Origin: Salinivibrio sp. ES.052
GTDB lineage: Bacteria; Pseudomonadota; Gammaproteobacteria; Enterobacterales; Vibrionaceae
Assembly: GCF_900141775.1 (NCBI RefSeq)
Contig: NZ_FSRI01000001.1
Span: 1,210,251-1,274,250, forward strand
DNA: 64,000 bases
Direction: 5' to 3'
The notes under the pieces were generated by a model, which saw nothing but the letters and a program-made list of their open reading frames with translations, was not told where the DNA came from and did not search any database. Shown in pieces: positions 15,772 through 28,984 of the stretch. Every line of letters starts with the position of its first letter. Position 1 is the stretch's first letter. The position numbers and the translations under genes were made by a program.

Positions 15772-17721
15772 TTATGTATTCAACCCTTTAAACGCGCTGA
15801 CTTTTTTGGTGAGCTCTTTCATCCGTAAATCAAAGCCACTCACCGCCTGCTCACTTTGCTCAAACACGTCTTGGGTGCGCGTGCCCTGTTGAGCGAGCTC
15901 CTCAATGCTCTGGTTGATTTCATTCACCGCGCCACTTTGCGTATTGGCCCCCTCGGCAATCCGCCCATTATGTTCAAACAATTGCTGCAAATGACTATCC
16001 AAGGTGCGCATATTATCCACCGCTTGTTGGTGGGTCTCGAGACTATGCTGGCTATCTTGGCTAACTTGGTTAATTTGCCCCGTCACATTGTCCGACGCCG
16101 ACCGCAGTTGATTAATAATTTCTTGAATTTCACTGGTTGAATCACCGGTACGCTGAGATAACGAGCGCACTTCATCGGCCACCACCGCAAACCCACGGCC
16201 ATGCTCCCCTGCCCGCGCGGCCTCAATCGCCGCATTCAGTGCCAGTAAATTGGTTTGCTCAGAGATTGCACTGATTACCTCAAGCACGCGGAGGATATTC
16301 TCAATATGATGATTGAGTTCATCCAAGCTGCTCTGGCTCGAGGTCATATTTTCTCCCAGCTGTTCGATGTGCCGCAAGCTGGTGTGCATACCACTTAACG
16401 CGTCTTGGAGCGCCGCATTACCGGCCTGAGAGAGCTCGCCGGCGTGATTGGCCGAATCCGTCACCTCAGTGGTGATTTCGGTGATATCTTGGCTAGCGGC
16501 AGAGATCGTTTGTAGTGATTGCTGCTGCACCATCCCCGCTTGATTCACTTCGTGGGCTTGTTGCTTGAGTACACCAAAAGCAGACTGTGACTCATCGACG
16601 GTATGGTTCACCGATTGCAATGCATCGCGAATGCTGGCTAGCAAGCCATTAATTTTATGAGCCAGTCGTCCGACTTCTGCTTGATCATTCACGGCAATTT
16701 GATGCCCAAGATCTAACTGGTTCGCAATCATGTCCACTTCTTCGCTCAGCTGTTTGATCGGTTGGGTTAAGTTGCTGATCACCCAATGGGTAATGGCAAG
16801 CGCAACCGCAATGAAAACGAAAGTGACTAAAAGAGACTGAATAAATTGCGACAAAATCGGATCGGTAATTTGTGCTTTAGGAATTTCAACCACCACAAAA
16901 CGGTCAAGATCAGCCAACCAGTACGATCCTAGAAAAAAGGGTTCACCATCAATGTTAATTTCACTGATCACCGGCTTATCGCGACCTAGAGTGATAGCCT
17001 CACGGAACTTATTGGCATTATCGGCATTGATCGCGGAATCAGTCGATGCGACCTGCACACTCCCATCATGTGTTGCTAACATTGCACGGCCTTGTTCGCC
17101 AATACGAAACCCCTGTACCAGATTCACCAAGCTACTGACATTAAACCCTACACCCGCTACAACGTAAGGCTGACCCGTTGCAGGATTTTCTGGCACACTT
17201 CGATAGTTAATGAAAATCACATACTGATTGCCATTCGGATCTTTGTTCATGTTCAGCTCATAGGGCTGATTCTTGCCAAGGAAATTCGGGTAAAAATCTT
17301 TAAACGGATAGGTTCTCATCGAGGCACTGCGATGCTCACCATCATAGGTGAAAATATACTTCCCCTGCGCAGTATCGAGCGTGGCAAATGCGTTATCGGC
17401 CCCCAACCGCGTCTTAGCATTAGACAGGGCCTGATGAATTGGTGCGAGATTGGTTAAGTCACCGCCGTTATCCACCCAATTAATTAACCCAGAATGGTGC
17501 GCGAGAAAGTTGGAGCCAGTGATCGCAGGTTGCAATTCATTACTGATCTCAAAAGCCAATCCTCTAAGCTGGCTAGGCAAAATAATATTCTTTAAGTCAT
17601 CAAGCTGCTTGTTCGCCGATAACATGGCTTGCTGTGCCATCGCTATCAAGGTACTCAGTACCAAAATTGTCGATAACACGATATAAATACGCTTCCTGAT
17701 CGAAAGAGTTTGCCAACGCAT
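15772..17721 (-). CDS. Methyl-accepting chemotaxis protein with periplasmic Cache domain
   Basis: A 649-residue chemoreceptor. TM1 spans about residues 12-31, a periplasmic region of about 250 residues shows dCache-like features ([23 protein letters not shown], then [14 protein letters not shown]), TM2 is near 290-312, and HAMP follows ([22 protein letters not shown]). The signalling tip [32 protein letters not shown] is intact, so coupling to CheA/CheW is expected. No C-terminal CheR pentapeptide is seen. Ligand unknown; Cache receptors commonly bind amino acids or organic acids. AAAGGACAGCAT precedes the ATG. Confidence 0.93.
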
Positions 17722-18266: not shown

Positions 18267-19193
18267 CTATACGGATTGTCGGACACTTTTGATGGCAGTA
18301 ATTACGGTCGAATCCAGACTGTCACCATATCGATGCTTTTTAAAGCCAACCAAGACGGGAATACTCGCCTCGCTCAACTCATGCGCAATACGTTCAACCA
18401 TGGCTGCAATTTGCTCTTCGGTTCTGTTTGCACAGAGCATGGTATAGATGTCTTCCCCTAAACGGGAGATATAACCATTGTCGTGTAAAATGCCGTTGAG
18501 AATGGACACAAACAGTGCGGTGATTGCCGTATCCTTTGAATGGGTCGACTTGTCGGGTTGAGAGATATCCAGCGCGATAACATGCACAGGCGTACCCACC
18601 GAGCGAATATTGCTCTCTTCCTTTTCTAAATAAAGTGACCAACCTAATCGATTGAGAAACCCGGTTTCGTTGTCTTTTAATTGTGAGGGTAAGAAGCTGA
18701 TTTGCTTTCGTGACAAGGCAATGTTTTGTAGCTCAAGTTGCAAAAGCGTGGAAAGTAGCTTGGAGACGAGCTCGATGGTTTCTAAGCCATCGGAAGGAAT
18801 GCGGTCGACCGGTTCCGTGTCTATCGCACATAAGGTGCCAAACAAATTACCATTCGAATAACACACGGGAATGCCAATGTACGATTTAATATTCTCAGCT
18901 CGGTAAATAGGCGCGTTCACATATGCAGGGACATTATCAACATCCGGAGCCCACCTCGGCCCTTCTCCCTTCACCATACGACTGCACATTGAATCGCTCC
19001 ACGTCAGTGTGGTCAATTCATCAATACCGTATTTGTTCCCTTCTACTTGTAAGATAACCCACTGATCTTCATGCTTACGAGTCATCATCCACGTGCCGTA
19101 ACCAAACTTTTTGTTCAAGTACTTGAGTGTATCGCGACTTGCTTTTTCAAAGTGCTCAAAAGGGATTTGGTCTTGCGTGTTGATATGTATCAC
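18267..19193 (-). CDS. GAF protein with degenerate GGDEF domain
   Basis: A 308-residue cytoplasmic protein. The N-terminal GAF domain (about residues 10-150) ends with the typical SYIGIPVCYSNGNLFGTLCAID block. The C-terminal half has GGDEF-domain landmarks (ETGFLNRLGW for LTGLxNR, then VIALDI) but the signature GGDEF is replaced by GEDIY in YISRLGEDIYTML, and the FKxIND element is absent, so cyclase activity is unlikely. A regulatory c-di-GMP/GTP-binding or partner role is inferred. GTG at 19193 is preferred: AAGAGG lies six bases before it and it starts 16 bases after the kinase stop. Third gene of the REC-EAL/LOV-kinase operon. Confidence 0.75.
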   Translation of the reverse strand: MIHINTQDQIPFEHFEKASRDTLKYLNKKFGYGTWMMTRKHEDQWVILQVEGNKYGIDELTTLTWSDSMCSRMVKGEGPRWAPDVDNVPAYVNAPIYRAENIKSYIGIPVCYSNGNLFGTLCAIDTEPVDRIPSDGLETIELVSKLLSTLLQLELQNIALSRKQISFLPSQLKDNETGFLNRLGWSLYLEKEESNIRSVGTPVHVIALDISQPDKSTHSKDTAITALFVSILNGILHDNGYISRLGEDIYTMLCANRTEEQIAAMVERIAHELSEASIPVLVGFKKHRYGDSLDSTVITAIKSVRQSV

Positions 19194-19209
19194 ATCGCGC
19201 CTCTTACAT

Positions 19210-22200
19210 TCATTGAATGATTTGTTCTTCCCGCAGATCGGTTTCAATTGCCGTCATCATTGCACTTATTTCAGTAAATACCGCTTTTACTTGTTCAGTA
19301 TCATGACTGTTTTTTTCTATTACTCGGAATAACTCACTCAAACGGATAGCCCCACTTGAAGCAGATGCGCCTTTCGCCCCATGCGCGATCGCTCTCATCT
19401 TGTCATAGTTAGCACTGACGATGGCCTGCTCAAGCGCACTGACATCCGCCGACACACTATCCCAAAACATCGACAGTATCGCACGCTTCATGTCTTGGTC
19501 TGAACTGCCAATAACTTTCTCGAGCTGACTCTCATCAATCAATGACTCTCTGCAGGCGTTGTCATCGCTACTCTCAGTCAGCACCGACTCGCCTTGACGC
19601 AACGCACGCCCTCTCAGCCGCAATGCTAATACCCGCTTAAGCGTCTCTAGTTCAACAGGCTTAGAGATGTAATCATCCATGCCAGATTGCAGACAGTGAT
19701 CCGCTTCTCCGACAAGTGCATTCGCAGTAATGGCAATGATCAGCGTACGTGGCCGCTTCTCTTCTGTTTCTTTACGACGTATTTCTGCGGTCAGCTCGAA
19801 ACCATCCATTTCTGGCATATGGCAATCGGTGAGTAACATCGCAAAGTCGCCTTGTTGCCACTTCTCAAACGCCTCCTTGCCATCAGATGCCATCTCAAAT
19901 TGATAGCCGATCTGACTAAGCTGCTTTGCTAGCACAAGCTGGTTAGTCGGTTGGTCTTCCGCACAGAGAATAGTGCCACAGGCTTTTGCATCTAACTGAC
20001 TGCCATAGATAAATGCTTCGCTACTGATTGCTTCGCTCCAGTCAACATCAGGACTTTCCAGCCCACACATCACCGCGGCACCAAGTATAAACTCACTGGG
20101 CTTAAGAGGATGATGGCTGAGCCGATACGGCCCTGGGTGCTTATAAGCATCACTTGCACCAAACCCGTCTCCCAGTAACAAGCAGCGCATATTTGGATGT
20201 CTATTCATACTGCTTTTATCAGTCGAGACTGCAATCATGCTATCCGGCTGCCAGTTAGTCAGCTCCGCCGCTGATGCATCGATGATCGCTCCTGGATGTA
20301 AGCTCTCAAGCAATGCTAAACAAGTCGTTTTCAGTGGCTCATCGTTAATGAACAAAACAAACGTGTATGCCGAAAACTGATAACGCCGGTTGATCTCATG
20401 TGTCTTATTGCTGCTTGGCGCCGGAATCCGAATGGTAAACGTACTGCCTTGACCGAACGCGCTCTCGACTTCAATTTTACCGCCCATCATATCGATAAAT
20501 GATTTTGAGATGCTCAGCCCTAGCCCAGTGCCGCCATACCGGCGCGTTGTCGAACTGTCCGCCTGTGTGAAAGGTTTAAACAGTTTATCCATTTGTTCGT
20601 CAGTCATCCCAACGCCGGTATCTTGGATACTGAGTGAGAGCATCTGAGTATCATGGCAATACGCTGTGGTCACAAAAACATGCCCTCCTTCTTTCTCTTT
20701 GCTGGTGAACTTAATCGCGTTTCCCAGTAAGTTAAGAAGGATTTGGCGCACTCGTACCGGGTCTATCAAGATAAAATCAGGGATGCCGTAGTCATGTGCA
20801 AAAAGCAGTTTGACGCCTTTTTGGTGGGCATTGACCCATAATGCTTCTAAAGTCTTCTCTATTAAATCGAGTAGGTTCACATCAGTCGGATCCAGCTCCA
20901 TCTGTCCCGATTCGATTTTGGAGAAATCAAGAATATCGTTGATAATTTCAAGTAACGAGAAAGAAGAGTCCCGAATTGTCGAAACCATTTTCGACTGTTC
21001 TGGCTCTAGCGGGGTTTCTTTTAATAAGTCCACCATACCAATCACACCATTCATTGGTGTGCGGATCTCATGACTCATGGTAGCTAAGAAGCGAGATTTG
21101 GCATCATTGGCTTTTCTCGCTATCACAGATTCTTTTTCTAGCTTGGCTTGCGTCTGTCGATCATGTGTGATGTCTAGATTGATCCCAAATAACACTTCTC
21201 GTCCCGACTGTTCATCTTTCACCACATTCCCCGCAGCTTTGATCCAACTGACTCTTTGAGTATCGGGATGGATCACGCGAAACTCGGCATTAAAGACATT
21301 ACTATCGTTGAGTGCCATTTCTACTTCTTTGTTCGCACTTTGGCGATCGTCGGGATGCAGGCACGCCTGCCAAACCTCAAAGTTCACCGTGGACCCAGGC
21401 TCAATCCCATACAGACGATACATATTATCGTCCCACTTAAGCTCACCTGTTTTCACATCCATTGACCAATTGCAAATACCCCCCGCATCCGATGCGAGTT
21501 GCATCCCTCGAAGCAGCTCATCTCGTGCCCTTTTCGCTGAGAGTAGTTCGCTCTCAATTGCCTTGCGCTGACTAATGTCTTCCAGGGCAGCAATGAAATA
21601 CTTGGTTGCGCCGCCTTCATCAAGTACGGTCGCAACCGACACCGTTGCCCACAAAGACTCTCCACCTTGCTTGATGTATTGTTTATCCATCGAAAACGAA
21701 CGACTCTCGCCTAAGGCGAGTTGAGCAACGTGTTCACGACTGACTGACAGGTAGTCTGGATGGGTGATGTCTTGGTAACTGAGCTGCAACAACGCTTCTT
21801 GGCTATACCCCAATATCTCGCTCATTCTGTCGTTGACCTCAATAAAGTTCCCATCCAGGTCAACACGACATATACCTACTGCTGCCTGATCAAAAGCAGT
21901 TCTATAAATCACTTCTCTTTCTTTCAACGCATCTTGTAGACGTTTTTCTCGCTGCTTAACGTCCTCCTCGACGGTGATATCTTTGATGACACCCACAAAA
22001 CCTTGTGTGTCACCAAACCAGGTTTCTCCGACGGACACCTCGATGGGGAATATACGCCCAGATTTATGTAACCCCTGCAGTTTTCTTGGTGTGCCAATCA
22101 GCTTTTTACTTCCAGTTAATTGGTACTGGTTTACAAAACCATCATGGTCCTTTTTATACCTATCAGGCATTAATACAGAGACATTTTCTCCGACTAATTC

Positions 22201-23994
22201 TTCACGAATTCGACCAAAGATAAGCTCTAGAGAACGGTTTACTTCCAGAATATGGCCTTGTGAATCGATCACCACCATGCCATCCAGCGCGGTATCGAAC
22301 ACGGTTCTCAACCGTCCCTCAGACTCTTGCAGATCTTGGGTTCGCCGCTGTATTTCCTGTTCTAGCTTTAGTTTCGCTTCGTCGTCGGCTTGCTTTAACT
22401 CAGTAATATCAGACTGCATCCCAATATAATGCGTCAACGCCCCATCCTCGTCGAAAATGGGGTCAAGGCGTAAATTGTTATAAAAAAGGGTGCCATCCTT
22501 TTTGTAATTACGTAGCACGACAGAACAAGATAGCGCGTTTTTAAGGGCATAGCGGAGGCGATCGATTTCAGGTTGATCGCGATCATCGACCTGCAAAAAG
22601 CGACAGTTTTTACCCACCACTTCTTTCGAGCTGTACCCCGTTAATGATTCAAACGCTTTATTGGCATAAATGATCGGGTAATCGGCAAGCCTGACATCAG
22701 TAACAATAATCCCCGTTGCCGTTGCTTCAATTGCGCGACTTTGAATATCAAGCTGAAAACGTTGCTCTTCGGTTTCTTTAATTAAGCTTTCTCGCTCACT
22801 GACAATATCGCGCAATGTAAGCAGCTCGTGAGCCATCACACCCACTTCATCACGTCGGTCTCTTTCCGGCAGCGAAAAATTATGCTCGCCCCGCGCCAAT
22901 TTTCGCACCGCGGTACTTAGCTGACCTAAAGGCTTGAAAACTTGCCGTGATACATAAAATGCAAGCAGTACAACCAAAGACAGTAAGGTGGCAGTCATGA
23001 TAAAAGAGTTTTTATACAGCGTATTGGGCGCAAGCAACGCCTCTCCAACTTCGACGCGAATCATCGCTGACCAACCCAAGCCAGGGTAATCGTATGCCCC
23101 TTCGGTATGGGCAAACCCTGTGACTTGATCCACTTGTTTTCTATAGTGCGTCGAGATGTTGGATCCCGTTAATCCAGCAACCGCTAATCTCGCCCCCTCA
23201 ACACCGTTAGTCGCCAGATTTAATTTACCCAGAACTTGAAAGTCTCTTTGATAATTCGCTTCATTCTGTCCCACGGGATCATAGTCAACGATAATACGCC
23301 CCTGACTATCTAATAGGGTTAATTCCGCACTGACTAGCCCGCGCTTAGCGAGTAATTCGTAGCTTTCGGCCACAATCGACTCAACCGTGGAAAAATCGAC
23401 CACATTCACCCATATACCGACAGGTTGATTATCGGTATTCCGGATAACGGAAGCGAAAATCATGTCGTAAGAGAAAGAATTGGAACCGAAAATAAAACGC
23501 TCTGGTCCGGTTACATACGTACTGTTCGGCTGTTCAGGGGCGAGAGTTTGGCCGTTAAGGATCTCATTGAACCAAACACTGTTCATAATTTGTGCTTTGG
23601 AAAGTTCAAGAGGCGCAAGCGATTTACCATGTTTATTTTGATTATTTATCGCAAGTAATTCGCCATCCATACTCACAATCGCAATGCGACGGTAGACTTT
23701 ATAATTAGCGATTAACTCGTTAAGGTTTCTTACTGTATTGTCATTTACTTGGCGGCTACTCAGGCTATCTGATTCCACTTTCCCCAGAGACAAAGGAAAC
23801 GCGCGTGCATCGTGATACCTTTCAAATAGATTTCTCTCTATCAATCGGATTAAGAGTGCTGCTTCTCGCTCTATGTTGGTTAATGTGCTTTCCTGAAGCA
23901 GATCTCGACCTTTCCAAGAGACCACAGTAACGGATGTGAGCATTAATCCGCCCAGCATCAACAAAATAATGGGTAACTTAACAGAGAATTTCAT
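19210..23994 (-). CDS. Hybrid histidine kinase with dCache, HAMP, LOV and PAS domains
   Basis: A 1594-residue membrane hybrid kinase. In order: TM1 (about 7-25), a large periplasmic dCache-like sensor (30-325), TM2 (about 331-349), HAMP (350-403), a LOV domain (about 419-535) with the diagnostic GKNCRFLQ whose Cys464 is the flavin-adduct residue, and the downstream RNYKKDGTLFYNNL and GMQSDIT elements. A second PAS resembles FixL (His617 in KKDHDGFVNQY, then LIGTPRK), followed by two more PAS/PAC units. HisKA carries SHEIRTPMNG (His975), then HATPase (GTGLGLSIS), a degenerate receiver-like stretch, a receiver with Asp1390 (LLTDCHMPEMDG) and an HPt domain (His1538, IAHGAKGAS). It overlaps the REC-EAL gene by four bases. 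Likely role: light plus chemical control of c-di-GMP turnover. Confidence 0.92.
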   Translation of the reverse strand: MKFSVKLPIILLMLGGLMLTSVTVVSWKGRDLLQESTLTNIEREAALLIRLIERNLFERYHDARAFPLSLGKVESDSLSSRQVNDNTVRNLNELIANYKVYRRIAIVSMDGELLAINNQNKHGKSLAPLELSKAQIMNSVWFNEILNGQTLAPEQPNSTYVTGPERFIFGSNSFSYDMIFASVIRNTDNQPVGIWVNVVDFSTVESIVAESYELLAKRGLVSAELTLLDSQGRIIVDYDPVGQNEANYQRDFQVLGKLNLATNGVEGARLAVAGLTGSNISTHYRKQVDQVTGFAHTEGAYDYPGLGWSAMIRVEVGEALLAPNTLYKNSFIMTATLLSLVVLLAFYVSRQVFKPLGQLSTAVRKLARGEHNFSLPERDRRDEVGVMAHELLTLRDIVSERESLIKETEEQRFQLDIQSRAIEATATGIIVTDVRLADYPIIYANKAFESLTGYSSKEVVGKNCRFLQVDDRDQPEIDRLRYALKNALSCSVVLRNYKKDGTLFYNNLRLDPIFDEDGALTHYIGMQSDITELKQADDEAKLKLEQEIQRRTQDLQESEGRLRTVFDTALDGMVVIDSQGHILEVNRSLELIFGRIREELVGENVSVLMPDRYKKDHDGFVNQYQLTGSKKLIGTPRKLQGLHKSGRIFPIEVSVGETWFGDTQGFVGVIKDITVEEDVKQREKRLQDALKEREVIYRTAFDQAAVGICRVDLDGNFIEVNDRMSEILGYSQEALLQLSYQDITHPDYLSVSREHVAQLALGESRSFSMDKQYIKQGGESLWATVSVATVLDEGGATKYFIAALEDISQRKAIESELLSAKRARDELLRGMQLASDAGGICNWSMDVKTGELKWDDNMYRLYGIEPGSTVNFEVWQACLHPDDRQSANKEVEMALNDSNVFNAEFRVIHPDTQRVSWIKAAGNVVKDEQSGREVLFGINLDITHDRQTQAKLEKESVIARKANDAKSRFLATMSHEIRTPMNGVIGMVDLLKETPLEPEQSKMVSTIRDSSFSLLEIINDILDFSKIESGQMELDPTDVNLLDLIEKTLEALWVNAHQKGVKLLFAHDYGIPDFILIDPVRVRQILLNLLGNAIKFTSKEKEGGHVFVTTAYCHDTQMLSLSIQDTGVGMTDEQMDKLFKPFTQADSSTTRRYGGTGLGLSISKSFIDMMGGKIEVESAFGQGSTFTIRIPAPSSNKTHEINRRYQFSAYTFVLFINDEPLKTTCLALLESLHPGAIIDASAAELTNWQPDSMIAVSTDKSSMNRHPNMRCLLLGDGFGASDAYKHPGPYRLSHHPLKPSEFILGAAVMCGLESPDVDWSEAISSEAFIYGSQLDAKACGTILCAEDQPTNQLVLAKQLSQIGYQFEMASDGKEAFEKWQQGDFAMLLTDCHMPEMDGFELTAEIRRKETEEKRPRTLIIAITANALVGEADHCLQSGMDDYISKPVELETLKRVLALRLRGRALRQGESVLTESSDDNACRESLIDESQLEKVIGSSDQDMKRAILSMFWDSVSADVSALEQAIVSANYDKMRAIAHGAKGASASSGAIRLSELFRVIEKNSHDTEQVKAVFTEISAMMTAIETDLREEQIIQ

Positions 23995-25196
23995 TCGCGC
24001 GTCCGAATTTTAATATCGGCTGAATTCCAATCGAAAACAGCCAGTGGCTCTGGCTTGGCGTACATATAGCCCTGCCCTATGTCACACCCCAGTGACTTCA
24101 CAAAGTCACCAATATCTTTGTTTTCTATCCCCTCAGCCACCACATCTACTCCGATTGCTTTTGCGAGTTGGATACTTTGCTCAACCACAGCCGCAGATTT
24201 GGTATTGGATAAACAATCGAGCACAAAGCGCTTGTCCACTTTAAGCTCATCAAAAGGAATCGCATGCAGTTGGGCAATGGACGAGTAGCCGGTGCCAAAG
24301 TCATCGATAGATAGCTTAAATTTCATCATTTTTAAGCGCAGCATTTGGGTATCGATGGTCGCTTGATCGGTGGTAAATGCCGTCTCTGTTAGCTCACAAA
24401 TAACCTGTTCAGGACGCAATTGATACTTGGCAGTTGTTGCTTGTAACCACTGAGGAAAATTCGCCGCTTCCAACACTTTGGCGGAGATATTAAAGGCAAA
24501 GGATAAATTGGCGATATCTTGCCCATGTTGGTTGATATCTTGGTACGCACACTCAATAACACGCTTGGTCAGCTCGGTTATACTCTCGAAATGCTTTTCT
24601 GCAGTGGGGATAAACTGATCGGGGAATACCATGCTTCCGTCAGGCTTGAACAACCGCGCCAACACCTCAAACCCTTTGAGGCGACCCGAGGACAAGGAAA
24701 TTTGCGGCTGGAAAAACGCGTTTAGCCCTCCTTTATCTATGTATCCTTTTAGTAACTTGGCGGTGAGCGGCGGCGGTGAATGCGGTGCGTGGTTCCCCTC
24801 TATGTCTAGTACACGCTCACTGGCGGTCAGCAATTGTTTCACTGTTGCAAATGAAAGCGGTTTGGCCACACATTCGATGATATTCAGTTGATAAAGACGC
24901 GCCAAATTGGCGGTTGAGGCCAGCACTTCCTCCTCCTCGCCACTCATTAATACAATGGCGCCTGGATAAGCTTGCGCTTCCAAAAACTTGAGTACCTCAA
25001 ACCCATCTTCGACCGGCATATTGAGATCGCAAAATACGCATTTAATCGAGTGAGCGTTTAGGACTTTTCTCGCTTCGCGTCCGTTCTCAGCCTGATAAAT
25101 ATTTTTAAAACCAAGGTTTTGAAGACATAAAAATAGGGTGTGCCGAACCACTTGCTGATCATCAACAACTAATATTCCCTGTTGGAAGTCACTCAC
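23991..25196 (-). CDS. REC-EAL response regulator, probable c-di-GMP phosphodiesterase
   Basis: A 401-residue two-domain regulator. The receiver (residues 7-120) has the acidic pair in VVDDQQ and phospho-acceptor Asp57 in FCDLNMP. The EAL domain (about 155-390) keeps the metal and catalytic residues: EVL in place of EAL, the Asn in NISAKV, ELTETA, IDDFGTG, the Lys in ELKVDKRF and VVAEGIE, then GQGYMYAKP. It is therefore expected to hydrolyse c-di-GMP when phosphorylated. The architecture matches RocR or VieA without the DNA-binding tail. Starts at a GTG with GAGGGG upstream; its stop overlaps the LOV kinase start (4 bases), so the kinase is its probable partner. Confidence 0.9.
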   Translation of the reverse strand: MSDFQQGILVVDDQQVVRHTLFLCLQNLGFKNIYQAENGREARKVLNAHSIKCVFCDLNMPVEDGFEVLKFLEAQAYPGAIVLMSGEEEEVLASTANLARLYQLNIIECVAKPLSFATVKQLLTASERVLDIEGNHAPHSPPPLTAKLLKGYIDKGGLNAFFQPQISLSSGRLKGFEVLARLFKPDGSMVFPDQFIPTAEKHFESITELTKRVIECAYQDINQHGQDIANLSFAFNISAKVLEAANFPQWLQATTAKYQLRPEQVICELTETAFTTDQATIDTQMLRLKMMKFKLSIDDFGTGYSSIAQLHAIPFDELKVDKRFVLDCLSNTKSAAVVEQSIQLAKAIGVDVVAEGIENKDIGDFVKSLGCDIGQGYMYAKPEPLAVFDWNSADIKIRTRE

Positions 25197-26474: not shown

Positions 26475-26609
26475 TTAACTTTGGAACCCAGCCCCTTGCA
26501 TTAAAACCCTAAACAACCAAGAGATCATTCCCAGCGCTGCCACACTGGCTATCCATATTCCTATTAACCAAAGCCAGCGCTGCCAAGTGGGTTTTATGGT
26601 TTCAGCCAT
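26475..26609 (-). CDS. DUF2474-like small subunit of bd-type oxidase (CydZ/CioZ-like)
   Basis: A 44-residue ORF in the minus strand directly after the oxidase subunit II gene. Its ATG overlaps the upstream TAA (TAATG). The product begins MAETIKPTWQRWLWLIGIWI and continues as one transmembrane helix with a short basic segment (WLFRVLMQGAGFQS). The Trp-rich start, single helix and position match DUF2474 small subunits found after CioAB genes, analogous to CydX. It would stabilise the oxidase. Too short for the usual ORF cut-off, so easily missed. Confidence 0.8.
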   Translation of the reverse strand: MAETIKPTWQRWLWLIGIWIASVAALGMISWLFRVLMQGAGFQS

Positions 26610-27610
26610 TAGTGATAAGCCTCATCAGGATTGACTTTGCCGCTAAATACACGGTAACTCCAGTAGGTGTACATCAAAATAATAGGAATAATAAACACCG
26701 CGCCGACTAACATAAACTGCAAGCTTTGTGGCGGTGACGCTGCTTGCCAAATCGTGATACTGGGCGGGATAATATGTGGCCAAATGCTAATTCCCAGGCC
26801 AATAAATCCGAGTAAAGTAATACACAGCGCCATTAAAAAAGGACGGTGATGGGCATGCTCAGGACCGGCACGCCATAACCGCAACAAACATAAAGCGGTA
26901 AAAAGAGGAACCTGTGAGAGCGCAAGAAGATTCGGCATACTAAACCAACGGTCTGCAATCCCTGGATACGCCAACGGTGTCCAAACACTCACTATCGCGA
27001 TGCATAATGCCATCAGCGCCACTAATCGACGGCTCAGATGATACATACGCAGTTGTAGTTGGTGCTCAGTTTTCATGATGAGCCAGGTGGCACCCAACAG
27101 ACCATAAGCAATGACTAACCCAACACCACAGAAAATCGGGAACGGAGCTAGCCAATCGAGCCCGCCACCGGCAAAGGCGCGTCCCTCTACAGGGAAGCCT
27201 TCAATCACCGCACCCACGGTGACCCCTTGAAAGAAAGTGGCAAAAATAGATCCCGCCATAAAAGCGGTATCCCAAAAGCCATGGTGCCCGGGTAGTGCCT
27301 TGAACCGGAATTCAAACGCCACACCGCGAAAAATGAGCGCGACCAACATCAAGGTGAGAGGGATCGTCAACGCATCGACAATCACGGCATACGCCAAGGG
27401 GAAAGCACCAAATAATGCCGCCCCACCAAGGACCAGCCAGGTTTCATTGCCATCCCACACCGGCGCGACACTGTTGACCATTAAGTCGCGTTCTTCTCGT
27501 TCAGTGATAAACGGCATTAGAATCCCGATCCCCAAGTCAAAGCCGTCCATCACGATATACATCAAGGTGGCAAACACGATGATGCCAAACCAAATCATTG
27601 CTAAATCCAT
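26609..27610 (-). CDS. cioB: Cytochrome bd-type (CioB/CydB-like) ubiquinol oxidase subunit II
   Basis: A 333-residue membrane protein with about eight or nine helices. The N-terminus DGFDLGIGILMPF and WDGNETWLVLGGAALFGAFP are the subunit II signature. It starts nine bases after subunit I with AAGGGGGAAAT upstream. With the short-loop CioA it forms a terminal quinol oxidase, probably the cyanide-insensitive type, which reduces oxygen without pumping protons. The small DUF2474 gene overlaps its stop. Confidence 0.9.
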   Translation of the reverse strand: MDLAMIWFGIIVFATLMYIVMDGFDLGIGILMPFITEREERDLMVNSVAPVWDGNETWLVLGGAALFGAFPLAYAVIVDALTIPLTLMLVALIFRGVAFEFRFKALPGHHGFWDTAFMAGSIFATFFQGVTVGAVIEGFPVEGRAFAGGGLDWLAPFPIFCGVGLVIAYGLLGATWLIMKTEHQLQLRMYHLSRRLVALMALCIAIVSVWTPLAYPGIADRWFSMPNLLALSQVPLFTALCLLRLWRAGPEHAHHRPFLMALCITLLGFIGLGISIWPHIIPPSITIWQAASPPQSLQFMLVGAVFIIPIILMYTYWSYRVFSGKVNPDEAYH

Positions 27611-27619
27611 ATTTCCCCC

Positions 27620-28984
27620 TTACACACGACCAGAGACAGTTAACGGTTCATGCGGCGTGTCATCGTGCTGATCTGGCCCTAATTTAATTTGATGGATCAT
27701 ATAGATATACCCCAACCCAAAAACCAAACCGTACACAACAAAGAAGCTGATCAAGCTAATGCTCATGTGCAAATCACCGTGCGCGGACACCGCATCTTGG
27801 GTGCGTAAAAGGCCATGCACCACCCAAGGTTGACGCCCTACTTCGGTGGTCACCCAGCCGGCAAGGATGGCGATTAGGCCAGCGGGCCCCATGTAAAAGG
27901 CAAAACGGATCAAGCCCTGATGTTCGTAAAGTCGCCCTTTATAGCGCTGCCACGCGCCCATGATGCCAAGCGTTATCATCAACAGCCCTAAGCCCACCAT
28001 CAGACGAAACGCCCAGAAAACTACCGGTGAATTGGGCCGATCTTCAGCAGGAAATTCGTTTAGGGCAGGAATTTGCTTGGTCAAACTATGCCGTAAGATC
28101 AGGCTGCCCAAATATGGGATCTCTAGTTTATAGCGAGTGGTCTCAGCCTCCATATCTGGCAAACCAAACAAAATGAGCGGCGTGGGCTCACCATGGCTGT
28201 TGTCCCAATGCCCTTCCATCGCTGCAATTTTAGCGGGTTGATATTCCAAGGTGTTCAGGCCATGCAAATCGCCAATAAACGCTTGAATAGGCGCGGTGAA
28301 TAACAGCATCCACATCGACATCGAAAACATCCGCTTCACTGCTGGGCTGCACTGCCCTTTCAGCAGGTGCCATGCCGCCGATGCGCCAACAAATAACGCA
28401 CTGGATAAAAACGCCGCCACCACCATGTGCGCCAAGCGATACGGAAAAGAAGGATTAAAGACCACCGCAAACCAATCAACCGGGATGACCTGACCATTGA
28501 CCACTTCATGCCCTTGTGGGGTGTGCATCCAACTGTTAGAGGCCAAAATCCAAAAGGCAGAGATCACGGTGCCTAGCGCCACCATGGAAGTGGCGAAAAA
28601 GTGCAAACGATCACCGACACGCTGCCAACCAAATAGCATGACGCCGAGAAAGCCGGCTTCCAAAAAGAAAGCGGTGAGTACCTCATAAGTCAGCAGCGGG
28701 CCGGTAATACTACCCGCAAACTCGGAAAAACCACTCCAGTTGGTCCCAAATTGGTATGCCATCACCAACCCAGACACCACGCCCATCCCGAAGTTGACCG
28801 CAAAAATTTTCGACCAGAAAAGATAGAGGGTTTTGTATTCCTGTTCACGGGTTTTAAGCCATAGCCCCTCAAGCACAGCCAGGTAGCAGGCAAGGCCGAT
28901 CGTAATCGCAGGAAAGATAATGTGAAAAGAAACCGTAAACGCGAATTGAATACGGGCCAACATAAAGGCATCAAGACCAAACAT
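27620..28984 (-). CDS. cioA: Cytochrome bd-type (CioA/CydA-like) ubiquinol oxidase subunit I
   Basis: A 454-residue membrane subunit. Haem ligand regions are visible: an axial His in FTVSFHIIFPAITIG near residue 21 and another in YRLAHMVVAAF. The GRQPWVVHG stretch near the C-terminus is conserved in the family. The protein lacks the long Q-loop insert of E. coli CydA (522 residues), placing it with CioA-type oxidases. It is the first gene of a three-gene operon (cioA, cioB, DUF2474) and diverges from a MocR regulator gene. Confidence 0.9.
   Translation of the reverse strand: MFGLDAFMLARIQFAFTVSFHIIFPAITIGLACYLAVLEGLWLKTREQEYKTLYLFWSKIFAVNFGMGVVSGLVMAYQFGTNWSGFSEFAGSITGPLLTYEVLTAFFLEAGFLGVMLFGWQRVGDRLHFFATSMVALGTVISAFWILASNSWMHTPQGHEVVNGQVIPVDWFAVVFNPSFPYRLAHMVVAAFLSSALFVGASAAWHLLKGQCSPAVKRMFSMSMWMLLFTAPIQAFIGDLHGLNTLEYQPAKIAAMEGHWDNSHGEPTPLILFGLPDMEAETTRYKLEIPYLGSLILRHSLTKQIPALNEFPAEDRPNSPVVFWAFRLMVGLGLLMITLGIMGAWQRYKGRLYEHQGLIRFAFYMGPAGLIAILAGWVTTEVGRQPWVVHGLLRTQDAVSAHGDLHMSISLISFFVVYGLVFGLGYIYMIHQIKLGPDQHDDTPHEPLTVSGRV

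Follow-up and report, generated by a model that had tools for sequence, protein, structure and literature searches.

An operon of Salinivibrio sp. ES.052 that may feed light and haem-gas signals to a REC-EAL c-di-GMP phosphodiesterase

The 64,000-nucleotide stretch of Salinivibrio sp. ES.052 DNA analyzed here (contig NZ_FSRI01000001.1, positions 1,210,251 to 1,274,250, from a genome of 3.57 Mb in 6 contigs), called the window below, contains an operon of three genes that encode a REC-EAL protein, a large hybrid histidine kinase, and a GAF protein with a degenerate GGDEF domain. We propose, with a probability of roughly 55%, that these genes form a multi-input phosphorelay in which light, a haem-bound gas, and a periplasmic ligand would all bear on the REC-EAL protein and so on the breakdown of cyclic di-GMP (c-di-GMP). 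The proposal is built on the domains present, the completeness of their residue sets, their conservation, the layout of the operon, and low ratios of nonsynonymous to synonymous substitution (dN/dS), from which the cofactors, photochemistry, gas binding, phosphotransfer, sign of the response, and role of the third gene are predicted. A first-pass annotation of this DNA had read the operon as a possible light-to-c-di-GMP pathway with the GAF protein as its characteristic third partner. That reading is partly supported: its core was right, and it was too narrow in its inputs and gave too much weight to the third gene. The three packed, same-strand genes that it described were found as open reading frames (ORFs), with the following features.

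23991-25196, minus strand: gene 1, REC-EAL protein, 401 amino acids, GTG start
about 24834-25175, minus strand: REC domain of gene 1 (Pfam)
about 24051-24740, minus strand: EAL domain of gene 1 (Pfam)
19210-23994, minus strand: gene 2, hybrid kinase, 1594 amino acids, ATG start
23011-23913, minus strand: periplasmic dCache-like sensor of the kinase, residues 28-328, between two hydrophobic segments
22384-22761, minus strand: LOV domain of the kinase, residues 412-537, with the codon of the predicted adduct cysteine, Cys464, at 22603-22605
21949-22326, minus strand: candidate FixL-type haem PAS domain (PAS2) of the kinase, residues 557-682, with the His617 codon at 22144-22146 and the Arg637 codon at 22084-22086
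20416-21102, minus strand: HisKA and HATPase core of the kinase, residues 965-1193, with His975 (Pfam)
19630-19971, minus strand: REC domain of the kinase, residues 1342-1455, with Asp1390 (Pfam and alignment)
19243-19479, minus strand: Hpt domain of the kinase, residues 1506-1584, with His1538 (Pfam and alignment)
18267-19193, minus strand: gene 3, GAF/degenerate-GGDEF protein, 308 amino acids from GTG 19193

Genes 1 and 2 overlap by 4 bases, and 16 bases separate the kinase stop from GTG 19193, the likely start of gene 3. The longest ORF of gene 3 begins at 19247, and conservation in an alignment of five Salinivibrio copies extends only from about the GTG onward.

By sequence, residues 412 to 537 of the kinase are a LOV domain, for which binding of flavin mononucleotide (FMN) and formation of a cysteinyl adduct are predicted. 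The best match in the Protein Data Bank was YtvA (2mwg, E 2.8e-33), with other LOV proteins next, and the NCBIfam YtvA model matched residues 419 to 550, the whole protein scoring 181 bits, below the cut-off of 250. Cys464 lies in the motif GKNCRFLQ, and the motifs NYKKDG and GMQSDIT are present. Together with Cys464 the kinase has N445, N463, R465, Q468, R481, N496, N506, and Q527, the set that we take, with the YtvA numbering, to be the flavin contacts of a YtvA-type pocket. The first-pass annotation had identified the domain from its motifs, and both the Protein Data Bank match and the profile, even below its whole-protein cut-off, bear this out. The YtvA and LOV top matches and the complete pocket residues argue against a plain PAS domain, a reading that was rejected. 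Across the 12 aligned full-length kinases that carry the cysteine, none of the nine pocket sites varies apart from Gln527, which is Leu in the copy on a Vibrio coralliilyticus plasmid. LOV receptors without the glutamine are still able to signal, according to the available text of PMC9098866.

Directly after the LOV domain lies PAS2, which appears from its matches to be a haem-type PAS domain and would on that account bind haem and a gas. Its best match among solved proteins was FixL from Sinorhizobium meliloti (1d06, E 2e-24), and it also matched FixL from Bradyrhizobium japonicum (3e-21) and DosP (1e-8). His617 and Arg637, 20 residues apart, align with the haem histidine and distal arginine of FixL, which we take to be H200, binding the haem iron, and R220, stabilizing O2. 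The role of the distal arginine in FixL is stated in the available part of PMC4263535. Further along the chain, a joint query with PAS3 and PAS4 gave weaker matches. Its best was that of PAS4 to FixL residues 22 to 136 (E 4e-13), presumably the non-haem PAS domain of FixL, and PAS3 had only weak ones, among them sLOV (1.7e-4) and DosP (5e-4). In a phylum search for LOV plus PAS2, two genomes out of 398 matched, that of the window and another in which the match spans query residues 4 to 178 only. Outside the kinase family, the PAS2 profile found six further proteins in the neighborhoods read. Two long sensors from other Gammaproteobacteria (L125:5466-9689 and L129:5774-8821) have a FixL-like PAS domain with the His/Arg pair and a LOV-like domain without the cysteine, and a PAS2-profile match in L113 has the LOV cysteine and neither the histidine nor the arginine.

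The full domain order of the kinase is a transmembrane segment, the dCache-like domain, a second transmembrane segment, HAMP, LOV, PAS2, PAS3, PAS4, HisKA, HATPase, a degenerate receiver-like stretch, REC, and Hpt. Pfam matches above cut-off covered HAMP, the PAS-type regions, HisKA, HATPase, REC, and Hpt, in agreement with the 1594-residue transmembrane hybrid kinase first described. The FixL-type PAS domain, the Hpt domain, and the receiver-like stretch were absent from that description; the last, at about residues 1201 to 1335, is our own reading of a region where no model hit. Hydrophobic segments at about residues 5 to 27 and 329 to 350 frame the periplasmic part, as expected of the sensor proposed there, but its dCache-like identity fared less well, the dCache_1 model (PF02743) scoring 22.8 bits, far below the cut-off of 45. 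His975, Asp1390, and His1538 are invariant in 21 aligned full-length homologs.

Gene 1 is a REC-EAL c-di-GMP phosphodiesterase with predicted hydrolytic activity. The sites that we take to be catalytic in EAL domains are complete, as the first pass had it (EVL177-179, N236, E268, DD298-299, K319, E355, and Q375), and the receiver has its phosphorylation residues (DD12-13, the phospho-acceptor D57, S85, and K112). The best solved relative is RocR (3sy8, residues 7 to 388, E 3.5e-45); the NCBIfam PvrR model scored 227 bits, below its cut-off of 580. In an alignment of 16 EAL proteins from the operons, which leaves aside a broken V. coralliilyticus gene and the operons where the gene is absent, the catalytic set is complete in all 16 and the REC aspartate is present in 15.

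In the mechanism that we envisage, the transmembrane kinase would read a periplasmic ligand through its dCache-like domain, the LOV domain would sense blue light through FMN and Cys464, and PAS2 would read a haem ligand, whether O2, nitric oxide (NO), or carbon monoxide (CO), through His617 and Arg637. The cytoplasmic inputs would act in series, via PAS linkers of fixed length, on His975. Phosphate would then pass to Asp1390, to His1538, and finally to Asp57 of the REC-EAL protein, whose hydrolysis of c-di-GMP would be altered by phosphorylation. The gene 3 product would be expected to bind either partner, kinase or phosphodiesterase, and to adjust it via the GAF domain. The most likely outcome would be that blue light and the oxygen (or NO) state set the phosphodiesterase and thereby the choice between swimming and attachment. 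Each of the two domain types, LOV and haem PAS, is familiar; with both intact in series in one kinase, this would, if the proposal is true, be a natural light-and-gas integrator wired to c-di-GMP breakdown in heterotrophic marine bacteria. More tentatively, and at somewhat under even odds, the FMN-LOV and haem PAS domains in tandem may form a coincidence detector that combines light and O2/NO upstream of the phosphorelay, with REC-EAL as output and the dead GAF-GGDEF protein as a trimming subunit. Sister kinases without either site that are still LOV- and FixL-like would then imply joint retention or joint loss of the two senses.

The joint fate of the two sites was followed in 23 full-length kinases, 19 from genomes, including the window's own, and four from plasmid records (V. 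coralliilyticus, V. europaeus, Pseudoalteromonas xiamenensis, and V. tritonius). A split kinase from genome G006, with both sites in its first piece, was kept out of this set. Of the 23, 12 have both the LOV cysteine and the His/Arg pair, and one, from G143, has the cysteine alone. The other 10 have neither the cysteine nor the full pair, G012 retaining the histidine only and G253 the arginine only. Both sites are present in the P. xiamenensis kinase, which is 52% identical over its length and whose PAS2 matches FixL with an E value of 1e-28. A tree of the catalytic half places the 12 two-site kinases, including this Pseudoalteromonas protein, in one clade with support of 99/99. Nine of the 10 kinases lacking the cysteine, namely those in the 21-homolog alignment, retain His975, Asp1390, and the Hpt histidine. 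The one PAS2 tested from a Cys-less kinase, that of G264, still has FixL as its top match (E 8e-12) without the histidine or arginine, and Cys-less LOV domains retain parts of the pocket. These remnants suggest that the LOV and haem sites are ancestral and were later lost, a history made uncertain by long branches and weak forks. The LOV-domain tree likewise has many weak forks, and the loss of the cysteine is not datable from it.

These comparisons bear on whether light acts alone. Under a light-only explanation, the LOV domain would be the real input, PAS2 a haem-less relative of FixL, and the operon a blue-light c-di-GMP switch. The evidence for the LOV domain is stronger than that for haem, the G143 kinase indicates that a LOV domain can stand without haem, and resemblance to FixL is no proof of haem when a PAS2 without His/Arg still matches FixL first. 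We nevertheless regard this explanation as unlikely, because equivalents of His617 and Arg637 are kept in 12 of the 13 full-length Cys-bearing kinases, even at 52% identity, and are absent as a pair from all 10 Cys-less ones. The first-pass idea of a light-to-c-di-GMP path thus survives as a natural route, with a LOV kinase and a complete REC-EAL protein in one operon, but not as the sole input, given the adjoining FixL-type PAS domain and the homologs without cofactor sites. Since those homologs lie mostly in similar operons, the pathway does not need light everywhere.

The operon family was delimited with a LOV query against 296 sampled genomes of the family Vibrionaceae, which at a threshold of E 1e-16 yielded 26 matches, spread over 25 genomes. 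A Cys-bearing LOV kinase stands beside a REC-EAL gene in 11 genomes, five of Salinivibrio plus G252, G115, G163, G212, G179, and G143. With the plasmid records from V. coralliilyticus, V. europaeus, and P. xiamenensis, the last carrying the arrangement outside the Vibrionaceae, there are 14 Cys-bearing operons. All 14 have REC-EAL (with a broken frame on each of the two Vibrio plasmids); gene 3 is present in 10, and eight have a companion gene for a coiled-coil-REC protein of about 381 to 396 amino acids with a C-terminal REC domain, which is missing from the five Salinivibrio operons and G143. Next to the 10 Cys-less kinases, the companion occurs in seven cases, four of them also with a similar REC-EAL gene, and gene 3 was seen in none (0/10). 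No EAL gene lies in the stretch read for G264, G230, and V. tritonius, and G275, G294, and G259 have a different EAL gene.

The companion is confined to the Vibrio and Pseudoalteromonas operons, and Pfam recognizes only its REC domain. A structure model of the G252 protein (mean predicted local distance difference test score [pLDDT] 83.5, predicted template modeling score [pTM] 0.47) has alternating strands and helices at residues 6 to 116, which we read as a receiver-like fold, a long helix at 123 to 195, and the C-terminal REC domain. By analogy, the companion may play a part like that of VieB, which binds to VieS, preventing both its autophosphorylation and its phosphotransfer, as given in the available text of PMC4352251. 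A decayed companion downstream of gene 3 was also considered and rejected, with no match in the five Salinivibrio stretches and, in the window's own genome, nothing beyond receiver-domain matches.

Several observations weigh against the multi-input phosphorelay. The G143 kinase has the LOV cysteine and no haem sites, and because the 12 two-site kinases form a single clade, their joint conservation amounts to one or a few events, not 12. The 11 two-site kinases other than that of Pseudoalteromonas all have the same spacings between Cys464 and His975. These also occur in three Cys-less kinases (G173, G199, and G253), and nearly the same ones in others; they therefore mark a common architecture and not the cofactors. 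REC-EAL was assigned as the probable target from operon position and homology. Its frame is broken in the plasmid operons of V. coralliilyticus (L062:2973-4216) and V. europaeus (L063:3155-4205), where the frames of the kinase, the GAF gene, and the coiled-coil-REC gene are open, and three Cys-less operons are without it, so the main target of the kinase may be a different protein. In addition, the kinase frame of the S. siamensis-type genome G006 (L030:2702-7485) is split into ORFs of 846 and 750 amino acids, which is either a real break or an assembly error.

The kinases without cofactor sites raise the question of whether light and haem are residual, with the dCache-like domain or PAS3 and PAS4 carrying the main signal. 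Ten of the 23 homologs manage without both complete sites, the nine of them in the alignment keep the three phosphorelay residues, and seven of the 10 site-less operons keep the coiled-coil-REC neighbor. Between the window's genome (G000) and G005, however, dN/dS is 0.039 for the LOV domain and 0.027 for PAS2, against 0.034 for the kinase core (rough values, with dS above 1), and we consider a residual role improbable. A kinase acting mainly through the coiled-coil-REC protein in Vibrio, or an unlinked regulator in Salinivibrio, with REC-EAL as a side output, is more doubtful still: the companion gene does stay where REC-EAL is broken in both Vibrio plasmids or absent in three Cys-less operons, but no companion remnant was found downstream of gene 3 in the five Salinivibrio loci, the window's own genome gives receiver-domain matches only, and REC-EAL is intact and constrained in Salinivibrio. 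For the multi-input phosphorelay, the conserved linker lengths and the natural site-less sisters provide a convenient means of studying how PAS domains in series add or gate their signals.

The description of gene 3 as a GAF/degenerate-GGDEF gene was accurate. Its GGDEF motif reads RLGEDIY, and it has lost the FKxND loop that four aligned GAF-GGDEF relatives keep; the motif is degenerate in all 10 aligned members of the gene 3 family. The GGDEF model scored 21.7, just below the cut-off of 23.8, which the G252 relative passes with 28.4, and the closest solved relative of the gene 3 profile is the diguanylate cyclase 4zmu (E 7e-8). The lost motif and loop argue against an active cyclase, which was rejected, and we infer that gene 3 encodes a dead GAF-GGDEF cyclase now serving as a regulator. 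The GAF half is the better conserved, with dN/dS of 0.031 versus 0.081 for the GGDEF half in one computed pair and 0.017 versus 0.050 in the other. The structure model, from an 8-sequence alignment, is of low confidence (mean pLDDT 59.7, pTM 0.44). As a characteristic third partner, gene 3 did not hold up, since it accompanies 10 of 14 Cys-bearing and none of 10 Cys-less kinases, and its absence from the G212, G179, G143, and Pseudoalteromonas operons rules it out as a defining member. A scan of named genomes gave five loci, in Salinivibrio siamensis, S. proteolyticus, S. sharmensis, Vibrio sp. JPW-9-11-11, and V. zhanjiangensis, and at a threshold of E 1e-25 the profile picked out a single genome, that of the window, among 394 of the order.

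Five of eight Salinivibrio genomes have the operon, and gene order does not differ between the window and the four other copies retrieved. In the operon-less genomes G001 and G002, the GrpB-like and LysR genes that flank the operon elsewhere are 534 and 461 bases apart by ORF ends; in G007, the contig begins near the site. Because of this distribution, the copies on large plasmids, and the Pseudoalteromonas copy, the operon fits a cassette that comes and goes, which suggests that such control can spread between bacteria. Among the Salinivibrio copies, dN/dS was 0.073 to 0.119 for the EAL gene (6 of 10 pairs), 0.058 to 0.077 for the kinase (3 of 6), and 0.025 to 0.079 for gene 3 (9 of 10), the remaining pairs being saturated and several of the dS values used exceeding 1. 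From these low values, all three genes look functional. The G004 locus (L033:1619-8615) is 57% identical to the window in REC-EAL, 72% in the kinase, 88% in gene 3, 92% in a methyl-accepting chemotaxis protein, and 98% in LysR, which reflects either uneven divergence or allele replacement.

Among known systems, the REC-EAL protein is like the RocR/PvrR type, with a full-length REC-EAL match and no helix-turn-helix (HTH) domain; to our knowledge, light and haem inputs are no part of the Roc and Pvr systems. VieSAB of Vibrio cholerae, in the available text of PMC4352251, is similar in that a single operon encodes a complex sensor kinase containing REC and Hpt, a REC-EAL response regulator, and an auxiliary protein. 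As described there, however, VieA has a C-terminal HTH domain, whereas Pfam finds REC and EAL only in the Salinivibrio protein, and VieB has an N-terminal REC domain with tetratricopeptide repeats, unlike the GAF/degenerate-GGDEF auxiliary of Salinivibrio and the Vibrio auxiliary, where the Pfam REC domain is C-terminal. With both of these defining features missing, membership in VieSAB was rejected. The same portion of the source mentions no LOV or haem domain in VieS.

The first-pass annotation had known of no kinase plus REC-EAL system with LOV input and this third partner. The action of a LOV kinase on a c-di-GMP enzyme via a receiver domain is already published, for in Qipengyuania flava the kinase LOV-1477 activates the REC-GGDEF cyclase DGC-2902 (PMC10267684, available text). 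The predicted Salinivibrio pathway resembles it in running from a LOV histidine kinase to a receiver-coupled c-di-GMP enzyme, under blue light in the Q. flava case. As far as that text goes, the two differ in output, GGDEF synthesis there and an EAL phosphodiesterase in the same operon here, and in the kinase, which in Salinivibrio is a transmembrane hybrid with REC, Hpt, dCache-like, and FixL-type PAS domains. PAS2 shares with FixL and DosP a haem-type PAS domain with histidine and arginine. The haem PAS domain of DosP controls an EAL domain (PMC4263535, in the part available), whereas PAS2 comes after a LOV domain within a hybrid kinase, and its REC-EAL target would be a separate protein. 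In SL2 and similar LOV-GGDEF-EAL proteins, LOV input is likewise combined with c-di-GMP hydrolysis, but in one polypeptide and, in the available text of PMC8846402, with no phosphorelay, unlike the Salinivibrio system. The same text of that review describes c-di-GMP photosensing by photosensory domains in GGDEF/EAL proteins or by short photoreceptors that act on EAL proteins. We found no report of an intact LOV domain and a haem PAS domain in one kinase, or of this operon, in the open-licence literature, as partly available and with subscription journals mostly outside it.

Across a class-level sample of 369 genomes, LOV matches occurred in 41 (52 matches in all, one of them that of the window). 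Of the 51 remaining neighborhoods, 29 were read. A LOV match and an EAL match share one chain in 17 of these, four have LOV with a kinase core, and the stretches read for those four, one a contig of only 3.7 kb, contain no EAL gene. A LOV hybrid kinase adjoining REC-EAL was not seen in the 29 stretches, which are no survey of all bacteria. Related wiring is present in L131, where REC, LOV-type, and EAL matches share one chain and the kinase is a separate gene next to it. At L137:4341-6945 and L139:5731-8738, outside the family, the gene for a LOV-type protein adjoins that for a separate EAL protein.

Elsewhere in the genome, BLUF photoreceptors gave no matches. A 991-residue frame (contig C6:388253-391915) combines a strong PAS_9 match (72 bits) with an EAL domain and fell below the LOV search threshold of E 1e-16. 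A promoter scan gave 8 sites, fewer than the shuffle mean of 12.0, and terminator-like sites numbered 11 versus 7.4 in shuffles. The chemotaxis gene at 15772-17721 was left out of the operon; it adjoins LysR in L033 and has no match in L032. At 26609-28984 on the minus strand, upstream of the operon and separated from it by two small genes, are genes for cytochrome bd oxidase subunits II and I (Pfam), which are suggestive beside a haem-type sensor, yet are present in the operon-less genomes G001 and G002 too.

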